Positions 1-41,806 of a DNA stretch of 47,362 nt are shown here, in pieces; position 1 is the first letter of the stretch, and each line of letters starts with the position of its first letter. This DNA comes from Halorubrum alkaliphilum. Lineage in GTDB: Archaea; Halobacteriota; Halobacteria; Halobacteriales; Haloferacaceae. The position numbers and the translations under genes were made by a program. Location: assembly GCF_017873815.1 (NCBI RefSeq), contig NZ_JAGGKQ010000021.1, forward strand, positions 1 to 47,362, read 5' to 3'. The notes beneath the pieces were generated by a model, which made no database searches, was not told the origin of the DNA, and saw only the letters and a program-made list of their open reading frames with translations.

Positions 1-1354
1 CTATCGCATCTTCTGACTCCAAGAACCGGTCTCTGACGCGGTAAAACCGTGAATTATCGACCCCACCCCGACGCAGTCTTGCGTTCAACAAGGCATCTGT
101 CGGGGAGAGGTTGAGTAACGACGTGTACCGATCGCGTTCCTCGTCGAGAACGAATTCGTTGGCAAGCACCCGCCTGAATAGTGTAATCGCTGCCTCGTAA
201 TCCGTGAAGACATTATCAAACGGCATGTCGTCTCGTTCGTTGTGTAACACGAAATTCCGTGAGTTAGAGTAGAAGTACTCTTTCGTCCCATCTGACGTAT
301 CCTCGAACGTTTCAGAGAACGCAGCAAGATCATCCACATCAACATTAAGCGACGTGACTAAATTCCGGATCTTGTCAGCCGTGGCGCTCCCCACAGTCTC
401 GTCGTGCGCTGCGTACCGTTCAGCCAGAACTTCCATCCCGGCCGCAATCGACGCAATCCGAGCATTCACAGTCCGATCACTCAGCATCGCATCGAGATAC
501 CACGAAATACACCGTTGGTACCGGTACTGTTCCGCTCTCTCAACAAATCGGTCATATCCGTGATCGAGAAACACTCGCACGTCGTTCGCACCGTCAATCC
601 GACCACCAGAGAAAGCATGACCGATATCATCACGCCACGTTGTCATCCACCGCTCGTATGTCCACGACACTGTGTCACCGTCAACCGCAGTGATTCGAGC
701 TCGAACCGGCGCGGGGAATACTCCTTGAACGAACGCTATCAACCATATCGCGGGTTGAAGAGTACACGATGCGTGATCGAATTGAATGTCTACCGGACCG
801 TTTACCGAGTGTGTTAGCGTAACCGTCGCGGTGCGAAGTGACCGCCTGTATTCTTTGATTTGCTGTATTCGCTCTTCGAACCCGTCCACTTGATGTGATT
901 GAATCGCGAACTCATCACGTTCCAAAAGCGGTGTGTCGTCCGGTTGCGGGAACCACGTATTTGGAACACGGAAATTCAGCACATCAAACTCGATCGTGGC
1001 ATCTTCACCGACAAACGCGTTGTCCGGAGCTGAATCGAACACAACAACAGACGGCGTGATCCCTGTTACTCGGGCAGTCCCGTCCCTCCCATCGAATTCC
1101 GTCGATGTAATTACTTTTTCCAACGTTACCGGGACGCCGTCACGAGTCTCTCCATGGAATTCATCGAATTGGGGGGGTTGAGAACCGGTTACCTGCCCGA
1201 TGGATTCTTCCACTGTCTCTAACGGCTCCACATCACCGGTCACGTCACCAGTAATGTCACCGGACTCGGTCAGCGACAGGTCAACAACACCACTCTCACC
1301 GTCCGTGTCATTGTCGAGAAGCACGGATTCGGCCGTGATAGCGTCGTTGAACAT
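1..1354 (-). CDS. ApeA-like HEPN ribonuclease, 3' end outside window
   Basis: The reading frame is open from an ATG at 1354 to the left window edge, giving at least 451 residues; it has no stop inside the window. The N-terminal part (about residues 50-230) is rich in beta strands and reads like the ApeA N-terminal domain (pattern GETRDGVPVTLEK, then VPNTWFPQP). The C-terminal part is helical and contains RNFVLHNE with R366 and H371, a perfect RX4H motif of catalytic HEPN RNases. Known ApeA proteins are anti-phage HEPN nucleases that act by abortive infection; that role here is inference. A TATA-like TTTATGT lies at 1391-1397, about 27 nt before a probable start site. It is divergent from the DUF3800-like gene at 1618. 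The HEPN call is firm; the ApeA subfamily is less certain. Confidence 0.72.
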   Translation of the reverse strand, partial: MFNDAITAESVLLDNDTDGESGVVDLSLTESGDITGDVTGDVEPLETVEESIGQVTGSQPPQFDEFHGETRDGVPVTLEKVITSTEFDGRDGTARVTGITPSVVVFDSAPDNAFVGEDATIEFDVLNFRVPNTWFPQPDDTPLLERDEFAIQSHQVDGFEERIQQIKEYRRSLRTATVTLTHSVNGPVDIQFDHASCTLQPAIWLIAFVQGVFPAPVRARITAVDGDTVSWTYERWMTTWRDDIGHAFSGGRIDGANDVRVFLDHGYDRFVERAEQYRYQRCISWYLDAMLSDRTVNARIASIAAGMEVLAERYAAHDETVGSATADKIRNLVTSLNVDVDDLAAFSETFEDTSDGTKEYFYSNSRNFVLHNERDDMPFDNVFTDYEAAITLFRRVLANEFVLDEERDRYTSLLNLSPTDALLNARLRRGGVDNSRFYRVRDRFLESEDAI

Positions 1355-1390
1355 GAGTATTGGTTGCTACGTGGATACTCCCGGGCTTGT

Positions 1391-1397
1391 ACATAAA
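1391..1397 (-). promoter_or_regulatory. TATA box of HEPN gene
   Basis: TTTATGT on the minus strand, centred about 40 nt upstream of the ATG at 1354. This predicts a leader of about 13 nt. Confidence 0.45.
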
Positions 1398-1580
1398 CCC
1401 AGTTCTGAGAGCGTGTCACAGCAACGCCTCACGATATTTCACCGGTGGTCGATTGAATTAACCGGCCAGGAAGCAACTCTTACCGACCGGCTGTTTCAGT
1501 CGATACTGTATATGAAGAAGAGGATTTCAACAAAGCCAAAAGTCAAGAAATACACGCGCAGCGACTAGCCAAGTTTGACA

Positions 1581-1588
1581 TTTATATA
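1581..1588 (+). promoter_or_regulatory. TATA box of DUF3800-like gene
   Basis: TTTATATA, centred about 33 nt upstream of the ATG at 1618. It predicts a very short leader of about 6-7 nt, as is common in haloarchaea. Confidence 0.6.
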
Positions 1589-1617
1589 GGCCTGTAAACA
1601 ACCTTATAATCGAACTG

Positions 1618-2502
1618 ATGTCATCTGGTCTGCGTCCATTAGCACTTCAAGAATCTTCTTCGGGCGATAGCAAGCGTGCGGCTCATGTTGTTGGTATTGA
1701 CGAATCTGGAAACTCTGCTGACGGAGCCTTTGTTCTCGCTGCTGTTCAGTGCCCGCGTAGTTCTGGTGAGCGACTAGCCGAGTTGCTCATCGAGTTAGAC
1801 CTTGATCCATGGGTGAGTAAGTCTTCTTCTGCCCCATCTACTCTCACAGACAGTGGGCTCACAGACACCGTAATAGAGTTGATTCGACAAATTCGCGATG
1901 AGCCGATCACTTGGCACGCCGCTGCATGCTGGGGGAATTGCCCGGTTGATAAGCAGGCGATGACAGCGTGTATAATTTCAACTAAATCTCTCACTAGGCA
2001 TCGCGACTCCCAAGGCGGGTATGAAGGAAATGCAGCTCTGCTACACGATGGTAAGGGCGACAACTTCGGTAATGGATATATCAAGCTTCGCCGAGCTGGG
2101 CGAACACAGTTTGAGGGATTTGGTGACCGGGAAACTCCTGTATTCATTTCAATGCTAGAATCTGGTGATAGAATTTATCCAGAGATAACCGCAGCCGACT
2201 ATATTGCTGGGTTAATCAGGTCAGAAATACATAATGAAGGGAGCATTGAGGCAGTTGATATTCCAATGATTGACCGTATCTCTAACTCTTGGTCAACGCC
2301 AAAAGACGCTTCTCCAGAACCTCAATACGAAATTCGAGCTCGAAACCACCAAAGAGAGCCAAAACGTCAAGATCGGGCGGCAGCTTGGATCGAAGGACGC
2401 CGCCCGCCAACGACTGATGCGTGGGGAGATCGGCCACTAGAGGCGATTGTCGATCGTTTGAGTTCTGATGTCGTGCGCAACTATCTACTGACCGAATTAT
2501 AG
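1618..2502 (+). CDS. DUF3800-like protein (RNase H-fold)
   Basis: 294 residues. The N-terminus has GIDESGNS (D28, E29), the hallmark first strand of DUF3800 proteins, which resemble RNase H-fold nucleases. Further acidic residues that could complete the site are D144/D148 in LLHDGKGDNFG and D194 in ITAADYIAGLI; the latter matches the DUF3800 C-terminal (A)D(F/Y)xAG motif. The tail (about 230-294) is basic and charged. It has a strong TATA box and is divergent from the HEPN gene, suggesting a two-gene defence or mobile-element cargo. Base composition is lower in GC than typical haloarchaeal core genes, consistent with transfer. Family assignment is by motif only; the activity is not known. Confidence 0.6.
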   Translation: MSSGLRPLALQESSSGDSKRAAHVVGIDESGNSADGAFVLAAVQCPRSSGERLAELLIELDLDPWVSKSSSAPSTLTDSGLTDTVIELIRQIRDEPITWHAAACWGNCPVDKQAMTACIISTKSLTRHRDSQGGYEGNAALLHDGKGDNFGNGYIKLRRAGRTQFEGFGDRETPVFISMLESGDRIYPEITAADYIAGLIRSEIHNEGSIEAVDIPMIDRISNSWSTPKDASPEPQYEIRARNHQREPKRQDRAAAWIEGRRPPTTDAWGDRPLEAIVDRLSSDVVRNYLLTEL

Positions 2503-2746
2503 AGTGGAAAGAACCGCCGGACGTCAACACACGTGCGCTGTGACCGCACATGCTAGCCAGACTAAGCCCCGCCCCAAAGGCAAGGGCTCAGTCTGCGTCC
2601 TCACTATAACCATGATATAGTGAAGATATAAAACTTGTGCTGATAAGCATTACCGCACCACGACACTACAGGATATTACTGAACAAATGGGATCGAACGG
2701 GTTTCAGCGGGAGTAACACAACCGATGACTTGTTCTGAGCGACGTC
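2503..2746. other. Intergenic region with two hairpins
   Basis: No gene is seen. The segment holds a hairpin at about 2558-2595 (CAGACT..GCCC paired with GGGC..AGTCTG), which could end the DUF3800-like transcript. A 7-bp inverted repeat CACTATA/TATAGTG lies at 2602-2622, directly followed by an orphan TATA-like GATATAAAA. The promoter-like signal faces right, but only a 9-codon ORF follows, so the gene it served may be lost. Confidence 0.4.
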
Positions 2747-2944
2747 CTACCAATCCAGTTCGATGTTCCGACCGCTGCTTTCGCCGCCGCCGACGTTCCC
2801 GAGCATTCTTGGTTTCATATCGGGGTGCCAGCTGTTGCCTCGCTGCTCAATCCAATCGTCAGCCTCGAGCTGACGGAGGACGCGGTAGACCGTCGACGGC
2901 ATACGGCGGATATCCGACCTCAGTATCGGCCAAATAAAGTACAC
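2747..2944 (-). pseudogene. Winged-helix regulator remnant
   Basis: A 65-codon frame with a recognisable winged-helix core: MPSTVYRVLRQLEADDWIEQ looks like a recognition helix followed by the wing (RGNSW). The C-terminal tail is GGGESSGRNIELDW. The family normally carries a full N-terminal helical part, which is missing here. Upstream sequence (2945-3000) gives no continuation and the start sits in the middle of the DNA-binding domain. I read this as the 3' remnant of a MarR/HTH-type gene left by rearrangement next to the integrase-like gene. Confidence 0.45.
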
Positions 2945-3241
2945 AATCGGTTTTGTGATGACTGCTCCCGTTGTGTGGTTAACTTGTGTGTTGGTTGTTC
3001 AACTTCCGACAGCCAACGCACAATAGTTTATTCCACCACTAGGTGGCTGCTGAGTCGTGCGATTTGTTCCGCTTCCAAACACTCTATGAGATGTTTCTGT
3101 CCACACAAGCTCTGACTCACGTCCTGCGGTTTTGAGCTTTGGAGTCTCAAACAACGACGATCAAGATTTGTAGTCAGTTTGGACCGGCTAACAAGAGATA
3201 CCCCAGTAACGAATATCACCCTCGGGTGGGCAGTACTAATC

Positions 3242-4909
3242 ATGTCGCAAAAATGGACTCTGGAGTATCTCCGGAACGGGTTCGTCGACGAGGTGAAGCA
3301 ACAGCGAGCAGAGCAGGGATGTAACACGAACGAGAAGCCGACCCACAAGTGGTTGCGGGAGAATGGATTCGGATACTTCCTCCAACGTGTCCGGGAACTT
3401 GGCATCCGTCCTGATGAATGGCTCTTCGAGGAATGTGGGTTCGAGCAGCCGAGAAAAGACTACCCGTGTAGCAACCCCGAAACGGTCCGGCGTGTCGAAG
3501 GCTGGCTTGAGTACGAGGACAACGTCGGCGAACGGCTCAACGGGACAAGCCTCTCGTCAGCGCGGACCCACCTCCGGCGCTCGATGGAGATCTCGAAGGA
3601 GACGACCGGGACAAGCGACATCTTTGAGCTCGGCCGCGGCGAGCGTGAGGTCTGCTTCAATCGCGCGGAACAGTTGATGGAAGGATTCAAAAGTGAGTTC
3701 GAAAGTGGTCAGAGCCGGTACAACTACGTGACGACCCTGCGGGACCTCCTCGCGCGGATGGAGGACAAAAATGTCGTCGACCATGACCCCCTAACACCCC
3801 TGGTCAGAGATTCTGACTGGGCTGGAGATTCGACACCTGTCACGATTGCGCCCTCCACATCGCTCGTGAAGGCGTACTTCGACGCCTGCGAGACACGGAC
3901 CGAGCAGATGGTGATGATCTGTCTGGCCGTGATGGGATGGCGGCCAGCTGACTTCTGTGACCCAGCAGCGATTCGGGACATCCACTTCGATGGAGAGCGC
4001 CCGTACGTCGAGTTCACGGATGACCGGAAGAATGGCCCCAGTCTCGTCCCCATCATCCTGTGTCAGGACTTCATTGAGCAGTGGGTGCGACTCGTCGAGA
4101 CGGTACCGGGCAACGACACAGCGCTGTTCCCATCTGACGCTTCCGACGACGGAGCACGGTCGAAGCAGTGGGTTCGAGATACCGTCACAGCGATCGGAGA
4201 GCGCGTCGACGAGACGCTTCGTAACGGTGAGAAGCCCACCCCGAGGCACTTCCGCAATTTCTGGTACACTGAGTACACGACGGCCTACGCAGAGTTCCGT
4301 CGAGACAACGACTTCGCAGCCTCGGCACAGGGGTCGCAGTCTGCCCGAATCCCGAGTACGTCGTACAACGATCCCCGCTATGGCAGTTGGTTCGACACGT
4401 TCGAACAGTTTGCCCACTCTAAGCTATCTATCCCGGTCGCTGACCTCGAGCCTGCCGACGAGATCGGCAGCATCGACATCGGCGATATCGATGGTGACGC
4501 GGCGTTCGACCTCGTTGAGACAGTCAGACAGGCCACACTGGAGGGCTGGGAAGATGCGAAGGCGTTGTTCCCAGCCGGGGCCGCCATCTACCTCACGAGC
4601 TACGTGGGCATCGCTGCTGGCCACACAGCGTCAACGTGGGTGTGGGTCAAACACCGTGGGATGTCGATGCATCCGGAGTTAGAGCACTACCCCAACATGA
4701 GTGTCCAGCGCCAGACAGGGCTCGGACTGGTTCTCGGAACTCTTCTCACGGCATTCCTCGGTTCGTGGCACGTGAACGGTACGTTCGAGAAATTGGCCTC
4801 GGGAGAGTTGACAGCGTGGGTTCCTCTGGTCTTCGCAGTCATCTACGCAGTCTGGCTGTTTGACCGGCAGTTGCCCGACCCCGATGATGCGGTCGAAGCA
4901 CTGGGATAA
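3242..4909 (+). CDS. Tyrosine-recombinase-like protein with C-terminal membrane segments
   Basis: 555 residues from the ATG at 3242; an upstream TTG at 3179 is in frame but less likely. The middle resembles the phage-integrase catalytic domain: AVMGWRPADFCD supplies an Arg (R234) in the position of the first catalytic Arg of the GLR motif, and PRHFRNFW (334-341) aligns with the HxxR box. In that box the His is replaced by Arg (R335) while R338 is kept. No clear nucleophilic Tyr in a GH..Y context was found. The last 120 residues contain about three hydrophobic helices (near AAIYLTSYVGIAA, GLVLGTLLTAFLG and PLVFAVIYAVWLF). Integrase-like domain plus membrane anchor is unusual. It may be a degenerate integrase or an integrase-fold protein with another role; function is not assigned. 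Confidence 0.55.
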   Translation: MSQKWTLEYLRNGFVDEVKQQRAEQGCNTNEKPTHKWLRENGFGYFLQRVRELGIRPDEWLFEECGFEQPRKDYPCSNPETVRRVEGWLEYEDNVGERLNGTSLSSARTHLRRSMEISKETTGTSDIFELGRGEREVCFNRAEQLMEGFKSEFESGQSRYNYVTTLRDLLARMEDKNVVDHDPLTPLVRDSDWAGDSTPVTIAPSTSLVKAYFDACETRTEQMVMICLAVMGWRPADFCDPAAIRDIHFDGERPYVEFTDDRKNGPSLVPIILCQDFIEQWVRLVETVPGNDTALFPSDASDDGARSKQWVRDTVTAIGERVDETLRNGEKPTPRHFRNFWYTEYTTAYAEFRRDNDFAASAQGSQSARIPSTSYNDPRYGSWFDTFEQFAHSKLSIPVADLEPADEIGSIDIGDIDGDAAFDLVETVRQATLEGWEDAKALFPAGAAIYLTSYVGIAAGHTASTWVWVKHRGMSMHPELEHYPNMSVQRQTGLGLVLGTLLTAFLGSWHVNGTFEKLASGELTAWVPLVFAVIYAVWLFDRQLPDPDDAVEALG

Positions 4910-5229
4910 GCCACTGCCCCCACAACTACGGGACCGTCCTTCTTCCACGTGAAAACTGTCCGCAGATCCAACTTTGATGCCAATGTTATTTTGGAGACGT
5001 TCGCCGTCATAAGGAGTTATTTTTACCCACCGGTTGTGGTGAGGCGTGATTTAAGATGTAATTAAGAACAGAAGCTAATTCCAGCTGTAGAGGCGCTTAA
5101 AAGCCAAAATAACCAACCCACGGTTTGTGACACTCATATAAAAGTCACAACCGACTCTCTTCGACTCACGCACGATTCCTGACGGAACCCTCCGGCGTCC
5201 TAGCGCCGGAGGAGTCGTGCTGCCACCCA
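4910..5229. other. Intergenic leader of the 5.2-7.5 kb operon
   Basis: No gene is supported here. It holds the promoter/operator at 5125-5150 and a GC-rich hairpin at 5189-5212 (CCTCCGGCG paired with CGCCGGAGG), inside a wider near-palindrome bounded by GCACGA and TCGTGC. The hairpin resembles the palindromic ends of IS200/IS605-type elements but no second end is visible, so that origin is only a guess. Confidence 0.4.
5125..5150 (+). promoter_or_regulatory. TATA box bracketed by TTGTGAC/GTCACAA operator
   Basis: A perfect 7-bp inverted repeat TTGTGAC (5125-5131) and GTCACAA (5144-5150) encloses a 12-nt spacer that carries the TATA-like CATATAAAA. A dimeric repressor bound here would occlude TBP. 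The first downstream gene products are the 55-aa ORF and a winged-helix protein, the latter a natural candidate for autoregulation. This is inference from position. Confidence 0.5.
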
Positions 5230-9713: not shown

Positions 9714-10520
9714 ATGCGAATCGATGTCGGGATGCAGAAAGGCGGCGTCGGCAAGACAACAACGAGTATCAACTTAGCTGGCGCGCTCGCTGACAGAGGT
9801 CATGATGTACTGGCTGTCGACGCGGATCCACAAGGTGGGCTCACGCTCAAACTTGGATACCGAGAGCAGTACCGCGAGGGAGAGTATGCACTCTATGACG
9901 TGCTGTCCGAGATGGGTCGTCTCTCACTGGATGATCTTGACGACCTGATCGTCTCCGGTGACGAGTTCGATATAGTGCCATCGCATATACGGAATTTCCG
10001 ATTAGAGAAGCATCTGTATTCAGAAGCCCGTGGGGTAGAAGCGCTGAAGATCGCTCTCGACCGGCTTACAGCAGAGTACGATTACGTGGTGATTGACTCA
10101 CCACCAAACCTTGGGCCGCTCGCTGATGGGGCTCTGCTGGCTGCTGAGAACGTGTTGTTCCCGAGCAATGCAAACACGATCGCGAAGGATTCGCTTGAGA
10201 TACTCTTCGATGAGATCGACACGCTCGAGGACAAGTTCGACGACGTGCAGATTTCGACAGTAGCCGCCGTGCTGAACGAGGTGGGGCAAGATGGTGTCAG
10301 CAACGAGATGCGGACATGGTTTGTCGAGACGTTTGGCGAAGAGTACGTATTCGAAATCCCGGACTGGGCAGCTGTCGAGCACGCAATCGAATACCGGACG
10401 TCGGTCTTCGCGTATAACCCGGATGATGCGGGTTACCCGTGGGACGCAGACAAGACAGACCAGCTACGGACCAAGTACAACGCCATCGCGGCACAAGTTG
10501 AATCTCTCAACAATGACTGA
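9714..10520 (+). CDS. parA: ParA/Soj-type partition ATPase
   Basis: 268 residues. It has the deviant Walker A KGGVGKTT (9-16), Walker A' VDADPQGG (about 36-42) and Walker B-like YDYVVIDSPPNLGP. These define the ParA/MinD ATPase superfamily, ParA branch, which moves plasmid DNA over the nucleoid. There is no N-terminal HTH, as in type Ib or chromosomal Soj proteins. The next gene overlaps it by 8 nt (start 10513, stop 10518-10520), and its product is the likely centromere-binding partner. Confidence 0.92.
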   Translation: MRIDVGMQKGGVGKTTTSINLAGALADRGHDVLAVDADPQGGLTLKLGYREQYREGEYALYDVLSEMGRLSLDDLDDLIVSGDEFDIVPSHIRNFRLEKHLYSEARGVEALKIALDRLTAEYDYVVIDSPPNLGPLADGALLAAENVLFPSNANTIAKDSLEILFDEIDTLEDKFDDVQISTVAAVLNEVGQDGVSNEMRTWFVETFGEEYVFEIPDWAAVEHAIEYRTSVFAYNPDDAGYPWDADKTDQLRTKYNAIAAQVESLNND

Positions 10521-37739: not shown

Positions 37740-39065
37740 CTACGCGTTCGGTCGATCAGCACTGATATGTTCGAAATCGATATCTGCGAACCGAGCCGTA
37801 TCCTTGAGAACTTCGACAGCGATCTCGGTATCGACCTGGAGCTGGTACTCCCAAGCAGGACCACCGATCGAACCCGCGGTCACCTTTTCGCCTTCGGCGA
37901 TACCTTGCATGTCGAGTTCACGGAGATGGTCTTTGAAGCGTCGCTGACCGAGTTTGTCGGCATCAATTCGTGAGGCGACACTCTTGTACACGCCGTAGAT
38001 CGGTTGAGCTCGGACAGGAGCATCCCCGGAAATTTCCAGGGCAGTGAGCGCGGCAAGGGCAAGATGAGCTTGTGTCGTCATTTCACGCATAGCCTCGACG
38101 ACGGCTTCTCGTTCAACGAGCGCCTGAGCTTCACGAGCGTGCTCTGCACTAACTTGGTTGTCACCGTGTTTATCCGCCAATTCGCCGGCTTTGCGGAGAT
38201 ATTTGATTGCTTGGCGAGCGTCGCCCGTATCTTGTGCCGAAAGTGCAGCGACGAGTGGGATCACATCATCCGTCAGTACACCACTCCGAAACAGATACTC
38301 CTGCCCGGATTGGTCGATTTCGACGACAGTTCCCTCCGAAACTCCATCGGCGTCGACTTCGTTGATCGGAGTCAGTTCGGTATCGCGGAACGCCTTCGCT
38401 GCGCGCCGGCGGAGGATCTGCTGGAGCTGCGTCGCATCATACGGTGAGAATAGGACGGAATCGTCGTAGAGCGAACTCTTCACTTTCGGACTGAGATTAT
38501 CCCGCCACTGGAGGTCGTTACTGATGCCGATGATGCTGGGGAAGACGTGGTCCTCAACGTAATCCTGCGCTCGAGCTCGGGGGAGACTGTAGAGAATCCG
38601 GTCGTCGTCTCCGAGCGTATCGATTTCGTCGAGGACGATGATGATCGTGCCACCGATCTCGTTCATCGCCTCGAACATCATGTCCATCACGACGTCGGTT
38701 GCGTAACCAGTCGGCCGGCTGTTGCCGGTGAGTTCCTGGTAGATACGGGAAGCGGCCTTGTATGACGTTGAGAGATCATGTGATTCACAGGAGACATATG
38801 CCGTCGTGAGGTCCAGATGATCGGATTCTTCCTCGGCATGAGCCTGCAGTTCGGAGAGTTTGGCTTTCGCAGCGGCAGTTTTTCCTTGACCGGCCTTCCC
38901 GTGGAGGAACACGTTGTTGGCACCGACTCCGCGAGCCGCGGGAGCTAGTGACATATGAAGATCTTCCATCTCGTCAGTTCGTTCGGGGAGATTGTCGGGA
39001 TGGTATTCCTCACGAAGGACCTCTTCTCGTTGGAAAATAGGCGAGGTATTCGAGAACTGGGTCAT
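37740..39065 (-). CDS. orc1: Orc1/Cdc6 origin-recognition protein
   Basis: 441 residues from the ATG at 39065, which lies 27-28 nt after a TATA box (39090-39097) so the mRNA is leaderless; longer in-frame starts are excluded by this. AAA+ motifs: Walker A HGKAGQGKT (55-63), Walker B IIIVLDEID (D146, E147), sensor 1 IIGISNDLQWRD, arginine-finger region LSPKVKSSLYDD. The C-terminal winged helix (about 345-441) ends in GGPAWEYQLQVDTEIAVEVLKD. It binds the ORB elements listed here and loads the MCM helicase. Its own origin array surrounds it on both sides. Confidence 0.93.
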   Translation of the reverse strand: MTQFSNTSPIFQREEVLREEYHPDNLPERTDEMEDLHMSLAPAARGVGANNVFLHGKAGQGKTAAAKAKLSELQAHAEEESDHLDLTTAYVSCESHDLSTSYKAASRIYQELTGNSRPTGYATDVVMDMMFEAMNEIGGTIIIVLDEIDTLGDDDRILYSLPRARAQDYVEDHVFPSIIGISNDLQWRDNLSPKVKSSLYDDSVLFSPYDATQLQQILRRRAAKAFRDTELTPINEVDADGVSEGTVVEIDQSGQEYLFRSGVLTDDVIPLVAALSAQDTGDARQAIKYLRKAGELADKHGDNQVSAEHAREAQALVEREAVVEAMREMTTQAHLALAALTALEISGDAPVRAQPIYGVYKSVASRIDADKLGQRRFKDHLRELDMQGIAEGEKVTAGSIGGPAWEYQLQVDTEIAVEVLKDTARFADIDFEHISADRPNA

Positions 39066-39089
39066 ATGCGGAATCATCTGAGCAAGAGA

Positions 39090-39097
39090 TAATAAAA
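39090..39097 (-). promoter_or_regulatory. TATA box of orc1
   Basis: TTTTATTA on the minus strand, centred about 28 nt upstream of the ATG at 39065. It decides the start codon. Confidence 0.6.
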
Positions 39098-39158
39098 CCC
39101 CGGTTACAGCAATGTCTAGAATGTCGTCAACTAGAGGCTCTAAACGAAATAGACAGAC

Positions 39159-39186
39159 CACACCCCCACCACCGTTTCAGCAATTC
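39159..39186 (-). repeat. ORB-like repeat c
   Basis: On the minus strand GAATTGCTGAAACGGTGG then TGGGGGTGTG. The best match to the consensus. Inverted relative to repeat d across the AT-rich region. Confidence 0.75.
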
Positions 39187-40482: not shown

Positions 40483-41806
40483 CTACTCCTCCCTTCCCGG
40501 TGGTTGGACGATATCTCCAAGAGATCGAACCAACTCTATCCCGTTCTCGTAGTTAGTCGTCACCCGATACCCTTCTTCATCCTGCTCAACGGCCCCTACG
40601 CTGGGATGCGCGAGCAGTTGGAGGGCGGATCGAATCTCTTCGGTGGTTGGGATATCGTTCGAGTCCTCCATGCCCACGACGATCCACCGGACGTCCTCCG
40701 CTGTCTCTACGGCTCCGTCGGCACGCTCGAGAGCTCGGATGACCGCAAGCAGGGTTTCTCCAGCATCGATCCGGTCCTGGATGTACTGAGGAGGTCGAGT
40801 CTGTCGTCCTGGAAGGCTCCTGAGCGTGTCAAGAGGGCCAATATCTCCTCGTGTGGGACGGCATACTCGTCCCGGCGATCGAGCAGCTCGACGATGTCGT
40901 CAACGGCGATGGTCGTTAGCTCGGTCGTTTCGGCGTTATCGATCACCTTCGGAGCAAAGCCTGGGGCGACCACGATGGCGTGATCAGCCCCACGCTGGCG
41001 CCGGTGTTTGTCCACGTTGGTGACCTCTAGAAAGTTGACTCGCCCGTTCCCTCGGGCCTTCACTTCGACAACGACGTGTTCGGGGGATCGGATCTCCACG
41101 TCGGTATCACCCCCTCCTTCGATCCAGTCGGCGGCACAGCCCAGCCGAGAGAAAGCCTTCGCAACGAGTTTCTCGAACTCCTCGTGGGCGTTCCCGTCCG
41201 TGCTGGCCGCCCGGAGCTGGTCGGCGAGGTCGGGAGTTGGTCCGTCGTCTTCATCGTCGACGGGGTGAACACGTTCGCCGGCATCGGTCAGGTCGGCAAT
41301 GGCAGTCTCGACTGATTCCTCGCCAGAGAGTTGGTTGAGGCGCTTGTCAGCGACCCGGGTGAATCCCTGCGGGCGGTAGGTCTCGTCGTAGCCAACGAGT
41401 TCGTTGAATTCCTCAATGTCGACGTCAACCTCCTCAATATCGGTGAGGAAAGTCATGTACTCCCAGGGGCTTTCCTCGTTCCAGCGACCGTGTTCAACGT
41501 TCTCTCTCCAGAGATACTCCGCAAGGTCGGGGTCGTGTCGGAGTTGGAGGACTTGTGCCCTCGCGACGAACGCGCCATCGTGGTAGACGAGCGCGATATC
41601 GTTGCGTTCGACGTTTCGCCACGTCCCGTCTACTGAGGTACCCCAGACGTGGACGAGATGTCGTCAGATGTCGTCCGAAATAGTTCGAGGTCCTCGTTAT
41701 TGAGATAAGACTCAATATCCGCAATTGGGTGCCCATCTCGGATGAACTGTTTGTAGTCCTCAAACGCGTCGTCGCGACCAGCGGGGAGGATCACGATTCC
41801 GGTCAT
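40483..41806 (-). pseudogene. EVE-like/PD-(D/E)XK restriction endonuclease, two frameshifts
   Basis: Three frames join into one protein of about 440 residues. Part 1 starts at the ATG 41806 (MTGIVILPAGRDDAFEDY) and leaves frame near 41665. Part 2 continues without a start codon as RHLVHVWGTSVDGTW, then VERNDIALVYHDGAFVARAQV, a PUA/EVE-like barrel, and on through the nuclease core HEEFEKLVAKAFSRLG, GGGDTDVEI, VVVEVKAR (catalytic D and ExK). Part 3 begins near 40790 where the frame shifts again: QYIQDRIDAGETLLAVIRAL to the stop at 40483. The architecture fits a modification-sensing barrel fused to an Mrr-like nuclease. A tandem 10-bp GACGACATCT at the first lesion suggests slippage between short repeats. 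Probably inactive. Confidence 0.75.

Follow-up and report, generated by a model that had tools for sequence, protein, structure and literature searches.

Two units at a haloarchaeal locus, probably juxtaposed by mobile DNA: a distant ApeA-like HEPN gene and a putative RNase H-fold protein–RNA module

ApeA is a stand-alone HEPN anti-phage protein in which an N-terminal domain (ApeA_NTD1, PF18862) is followed by a HEPN domain (HEPN_Apea, PF18739). The N-terminal domain ApeA-NTD1 has been published as consisting mostly of beta strands, and the HEPN superfamily is characterized by a second conserved acidic residue, typically within an Ex3[KR] motif (PMC3710099). A 2026 preprint cited in PMC13405049 reports, by its title, that deoxydinucleotides trigger ApeA. 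According to a published description, DUF3800 (PF12686) is a nuclease with an RNase H fold (PMC12669027). The antitoxin of type III toxin-antitoxin systems (ToxIN) consists of multiple RNA repeats (PMC8860590). In TnpB systems, a nuclease with an RNase H-type fold is found beside a conserved ncRNA, the omega RNA. Comparable protein–RNA pairs have time and again turned out to be antiviral, RNA-guided or toxin-antitoxin systems.

The window analysed here is one entire contig of 47,362 nt. The original prediction had placed two divergent nuclease-type genes at its left end, one coding for an ApeA-like HEPN ribonuclease and the other for a DUF3800-like protein, and had taken them for one system. 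The present analysis very probably reveals two independent units instead, namely a HEPN gene related to ApeA and an RNase H-fold protein with an ncRNA, which were juxtaposed by mobile DNA. This degree of confidence applies to the anatomy (two separate units, an ApeA-related HEPN protein and a protein–RNA module) and leaves aside the inhibitor mechanism discussed below, which is the leading guess. The features of the locus are as follows.

1–95, no strand assigned: mobile-element end with the terminus CTTGCGTTCAACAAGGCA at 78–95; in-frame read-through places about 30 foreign residues on the HEPN ORF.
96–1354, minus strand: homologous part of the predicted gene for an ApeA-like HEPN ribonuclease, with its start codon at 1354 (15-member alignment A2, AlphaFold model, hhalign to ApeA).
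242–259, minus strand: codons of the RX4H motif R366-N-F-V-L-H371.
1355–1475, minus strand: DNA native to the region upstream of the HEPN gene, within the block 96–1475 common to locus L040.
1473–1538, no strand assigned: dispersed repeat in the supposed shared control region, right border of the HEPN block (own-genome copies, common boundaries).
1618–2502, plus strand: gene of a predicted RNase H-fold protein, 294 aa, hereafter P0002 (18-member alignment A4, invariant acidic residues, structural model, Foldseek).
2513–2604, minus strand: predicted gene of a 92-nt ncRNA that folds into a three-way junction, tail to tail with the RNase H gene (conservation, structure, covariation, covariance model).
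2626–2640, minus strand: putative BRE/TATA promoter element of the ncRNA, minus-strand sequence GCACAAGTTTTATAT (TATA-like strings at −28/−29 in 26 loci).

The minus-strand ORF that runs from 1354 to the left edge of the contig (1354..2, 451 aa) and contains R366-N-F-V-L-H371 could be confirmed as originally described. A search of 391 genomes of the class revealed 14 further HEPN relatives, with identities to the window protein of 21–91% across the family alignment, plus many short matches limited to residues ~414–451. Three RX4H strings occur in the window protein compared to 0.63 expected by chance, so that the argument rests on conservation and not on the motif itself; only the string at 366–371 was conserved, with R366 and H371 invariant in 15/15 members. 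In the AlphaFold model (pLDDT 83.9, pTM 0.84), the N-terminal half was beta-rich, in agreement with the published ApeA-NTD1, while the C-terminal half was helical, with the motif located within helix 363–371, as in HEPN proteins, which carry a catalytic RX4-6H in a helical domain. The second acidic feature of the superfamily could also be observed, as E308 was invariant in 15/15 members, position 312 was K or R in 8/15 (E in the window protein) and R313 was present in 13/15. A PDB fold search with the model returned chance matches only, with no meaningful match to a solved structure, and a PDB sequence profile search gave nothing significant for either the HEPN or the RNase H family. The HEPN relatives extend only four residues past the end of their homology to the window protein, and the short matches represent the mobile-element end, which indicates that the HEPN gene is nearly complete and bears a foreign tail at this locus. 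Thus, the predicted truncation at the left edge is real for a few C-terminal residues, but the protein is not half missing, its last ~30 residues being read from the mobile-element end. Carrying this tail, the gene may be damaged here.

Scans of the HEPN and RNase H proteins against Pfam, NCBIfam and PADLOC returned nothing useful. No relevant Pfam match was obtained for the window HEPN protein or any of the 15 members, and the PADLOC ApeA models did not match the window protein and hit one relative only, weakly (E 0.009). Since these models miss the window protein, haloarchaeal ApeA sequences were collected (eight genuine ApeA proteins of the same class, gathered by Pfam profile) and the profiles were compared. 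The hhalign comparison of the HEPN family with haloarchaeal ApeA gave E 1.1e-6 over 348 columns in one direction and 2.3e-7 in the other, with scores of 57.8 and 62.9 compared to at most 20.8 in 30 column permutations and 19.0 for the reversed profile. The N-terminal and HEPN domains, taken alone, each matched their own ApeA counterpart (best E ~2e-4), with no cross-match between the two. DUF4145, a different HEPN family, scored only 22–25 against the HEPN family profile. A bridging homologue from outside the class (L143) matched the HEPN family with E 3.4e-16 and Pfam HEPN_Apea with E 0.001, below the cut-off; the neighbouring protein has a TaqI-type specificity domain. Both ApeA and the window family have a beta-rich N-terminal domain followed by a C-terminal HEPN domain with RX4H. 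The profile evidence supports the HEPN family as a distant homologue of ApeA, though not a member by existing models. The predicted likeness to ApeA therefore survives as distant homology, colinear across both domains, but not as a match to any Pfam or PADLOC ApeA model above its cut-off. The window family is distinct within the haloarchaea, in which genuine ApeA is also present.

No gene recurred beside three or more of the HEPN relatives, which indicates a stand-alone gene; ApeA is likewise a single gene without a constant partner. The neighbours of several relatives, in hand-picked loci without a control set, included a PLD/SNF2 helicase with a methylase, an N6 methylase, UvrD with a PD-(D/E)XK nuclease, GmrSD and a SIR2-like protein, and such defence-type surroundings at several loci are a further likeness to ApeA. 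In two related loci, the HEPN gene has the gene of a DUF4238 protein as its direct neighbour (L050:9861-10997 and L052:7397-8536). A full-length relative with 50% identity was found in an 88.7-kb IMG/VR contig (IMGVR_UViG_3300027007_000012; L145:5001-6401), which represents a tailed virus and contains terminase and portal genes; a thymidylate synthase gene lies nearby. This relative is perhaps a virus-borne ApeA-like protein directed against competing viruses. Three further representatives of HEPN clades, scanned against viral contigs, gave no match. Homology, motif conservation and the defence-type neighbours point to a stand-alone, divergent ApeA-like HEPN ribonuclease with a putative function in defence. 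Its N-terminal domain would sense infection, and paired HEPN domains (RX4H) would then cut RNA, halting the growth of the infected cell. A divergent haloarchaeal ApeA-like branch of this kind escapes present defence catalogues.

Repeats were present at both borders of the HEPN unit. Sixteen loci matched window 1–95 at 77–100%, with the matches ending at window 93–98 and the flanks unrelated, and a DDE transposase-like ORF adjoins one copy of this element in the window's own genome (L002). The repeat at 1473–1538 has at least six further copies in the same genome. In the closest HEPN locus (L040), which carries an intact copy from Haloarchaeobius, homology covers exactly window 96–1475, with 91.6% identity. 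The 263-bp intergenic DNA was accordingly composite, consisting of upstream DNA native to the HEPN gene as far as 1475, the repeat at 1473–1538 and then the upstream DNA of the RNase H gene. As the homology block is bounded by repeats on both sides, the supposed shared control region is better read as a junction of unrelated neighbourhoods; the predicted 263-bp spacing was correct, but not its nature. The termini of the two repeats, TTCAACAAGGCA and TTCAACAAAGCCA, are alike and lie in the same orientation, which suggests that both represent the ends of insertion elements related to each other. Farther along the window, a minus-strand gene (40710–41456) codes for an Mrr-type restriction endonuclease domain (PF04471, E 1.1e-7). 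A ParA-like gene (9714–10517) and a Cdc6/Orc1-like gene (37743–39161) could also be identified, which suggests that the window is a replicon or an integrated element. The plus-strand ORF at 3242–4906 codes for a 555-aa protein that is hydrophobic towards its C-terminus and gave no Pfam match; judged by eye, it is possibly recombinase-like.

The divergent plus-strand ORF at 1618–2502, with its G-I-D-E-S-G-N start, was likewise present as described. Relatives of P0002 were found in 31 of the 391 genomes, its own included. The best structural match of the P0002 model (pLDDT 84.0, pTM 0.88) was RNase HII (PF01351), with a Foldseek E of 3.6e-7 and a probability of 1.00, and a GIDE-type first strand is common to both proteins. 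This topology, together with the acidic residues D28, E29, D144 and D194, which were invariant in the 18-member alignment, supports the prediction that P0002 is an RNase H-fold protein. However, the TM-score to RNase HII was only 0.42 by query and 0.53 by target, and the sequence profiles were barely related (E 0.0026); ten of ten genomes checked also carry an ordinary RNase HII. P0002 resembles DUF3800 in its N-terminal strand, which bears DESG, and in the P..(A)D..A motif of a C-terminal helix, but 0/18 members matched PF12686 at E ≤ 10 by hmmscan, and the profile-profile score was only 24–28. Both families were rejected as the family of P0002 because the sequence profiles scarcely exceed background. 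Of the original assignment, the RNase H fold holds, while DUF3800 is reduced to a resemblance in motifs. P0002 found no match in viral contigs or phages.

DNA similarity around P0002 continues past the stop codon. In 21 aligned loci, a block of ~92 nt begins between 3 nt before and 12 nt after the gene end and is better conserved than the gene, and the same loci showed no counterpart upstream. In the window, the predicted ncRNA gene lies 10 bases beyond the RNase H gene and is encoded by the other strand. The minus-strand sequences share one three-way junction, formed by P1 of 5 bp, a long P2 hairpin and a P3 hairpin with a 7-nt loop, and the window copy folds with −50.1 kcal/mol (z = −4.0). 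P1, the base of P2, and P3 can be formed by 18/18 aligned RNAs, with compensatory changes such as C-G, U-A and A-U at P1 position 4, and the G-U pairs are compatible with the minus strand only. Among 29 distinct ncRNAs, 90.9% of cells were paired, with 82 double-change cells compared to 24.6 in shuffled data and a covariation score of 0.393 compared to 0.135 shuffled and at most 0.091 with partners slid, in an alignment (A8) that was fitted to the model and thus favours the structure. With A7, an alignment not fitted to the model, RNAalifold found 16 pairs, six of them with double (compensatory) changes, which is a weaker signal but points the same way. The length across homologues was 90–96 nt, almost wholly structured. 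TATA-like strings cluster 28–29 nt before the 5′ end in 26 loci, with none equally far from the opposite end. The covariance model R2, used for the RNA searches, detected the ncRNA as a single copy in its own genome (E 1.5e-15). No match at E ≤ 1 was found in Rfam for window 1–5000 on both strands (4227 families), and ARAGORN revealed no tRNA or tmRNA in window 2400–2750. Interpretation of the block as a transposon end was rejected, given that genomes nearly always have a single copy and that an upstream end to match it is lacking. A second ncRNA copy occurs in one genome (G083, C4:340374-340465).

The ncRNA was present beside every intact P0002-family gene examined, including eight loci outside model building (L070, L077–L083), and, among loci unused for the model, even beside nucleases only 26–29% identical. 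No intact nuclease without the ncRNA was seen among the P0002-family loci examined; the nuclease genes that lacked it looked broken, being in pieces (G212) or altered at the C-terminus (L099). The ncRNA was found in 37/322 genomes, 32 of them with strong matches, while the five weak ones (G153, G027, G116, G185 and G257; E 0.001–0.01) were treated as chance. The 32 genomes comprised 25 with P0002 relatives, two with decayed nuclease remnants beside the ncRNA (L172 and L179) and five whose ncRNA has no nuclease gene nearer than 1.5 kb (orphan loci L164, L168, L163, L175 and L176, in genomes G155, G061, G128, G141 and G316). No convincing copy of the RNA was seen in four haloarchaeal DUF3800 loci that were read. 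Beyond the ncRNA promoter, five genomes carry a gene for a ~130-aa winged-helix protein (including L096:4427-4834, L098:4050-4457 and L102:8801-9190), and in three other genomes (L091, L092 and L097) a comparable place is taken by another protein, of 105 aa. A winged-helix regulator across the promoter would fit control of the RNA supply. Based on the linkage, the RNA structure and the promoter sequence, the RNase H-fold protein and the 92-nt ncRNA (1618–2604) likely constitute a two-part module whose components would act jointly.

Two other readings of the locus were weighed against this arrangement. A true divergent two-nuclease defence pair with one shared promoter region would account for two nuclease-type genes lying adjacent and divergent here. 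However, the RNase H gene was absent at all 14 other HEPN loci, including the one ~92% identical, no HEPN homologue was seen in the neighbourhoods of 20 RNase H loci, and genome co-occurrence of the two families was at chance level (2 observed vs. 1.2 expected, Fisher p = 0.34). A repeat lies inside the region said to be shared, and the HEPN homology breaks exactly there. The adjacency is accidental and the pairing unique to this locus, an outcome that the original prediction had itself named as refuting it; the divergent-pair reading is largely refuted and retains hardly any probability. What had been flagged as a pair is a neighbour effect, and a false lead is thereby removed. Nearly as improbable is a reading in which the element past the RNase H gene is no RNA gene but simply a conserved terminator of transcription or the end of a mobile element. 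Its position within ~12 nt of the stop codon would suit such an element, but the three-way junction with compensatory changes, the G-U pairs fitting only the minus strand and the minus-strand TATA at a fixed −28 argue for an RNA gene, as does its occurrence nearly always as a single copy per genome without a conserved upstream end.

Regarding mechanism, the ncRNA would bind the RNase H-fold protein and control its activity; inhibition, in an arrangement like that of a toxin and its antitoxin, is the most likely form of this control, and an RNA-dependent nuclease ranks second. The RNA alone is tolerated while an intact nuclease alone was not seen, the pattern that an RNA antitoxin predicts; yet an RNA that has a job of its own would fit the asymmetry as well, and the orphan RNAs number only five. 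Inhibition of the nuclease consequently receives the largest share among the mechanisms but stays tentative. Somewhat doubtful is the possibility that the ncRNA serves as a scaffold or guide for an RNA-dependent nuclease in the manner of TnpB and omega RNA, as the RNase H-type fold with its invariant acidic residues and the tight linkage to one structured RNA would allow. The near-fixed length and almost complete structure of the RNA leave no obvious variable guide segment, its gene is convergent with its own promoter and not on the same strand with the gene's 3′ end, and it persists without the nuclease. Rather unlikely is a reading in which the ncRNA serves the cell in some other way, for instance as a regulator, and is processed or degraded by the RNase H-fold enzyme. 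Orphan ncRNAs in five genomes, at least two of them (L164 and L168) with an intact promoter, and the winged-helix regulator gene beyond the promoter in five genomes are in its favour, but both parts are patchy (RNA in 37/322 and protein in 31/391 genomes), unlike a core RNA. With inhibition preferred among these mechanisms, the chances appear about even that the module is a previously undescribed haloarchaeal one in which a dedicated, convergent 92-nt RNA with its own promoter holds or directs an RNase H-fold nuclease, for addiction or antiviral purposes, on plasmids and chromosomes. A conserved ncRNA family absent from Rfam is in any case tied to an RNase H-fold protein. Several groups of salt-loving archaea are genetically tractable, and the module, being compact and nearly always single copy in such organisms, is directly testable.

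In comparison with known systems, the module resembles type III toxin-antitoxin systems (ToxIN) in the genetic pairing of a ribonuclease-type protein with a structured RNA. The type III RNA is an upstream, co-transcribed tandem repeat, whereas a single downstream RNA with its own TATA element is encoded on the opposite strand here, and the ToxN-type toxin is not known to have an RNase H fold. The likeness to TnpB lies in an RNase H-type fold beside a conserved ncRNA; P0002 differs in its smaller size and in that no TnpB domain was found in it, and its RNA lies on the opposite strand with no guide segment seen. Because the tested type III features fail and no sign of TnpB with omega RNA could be detected, the module is rated as belonging outside the known families, though it may still work in the manner of a type III toxin-antitoxin or a TnpB/omega RNA system.
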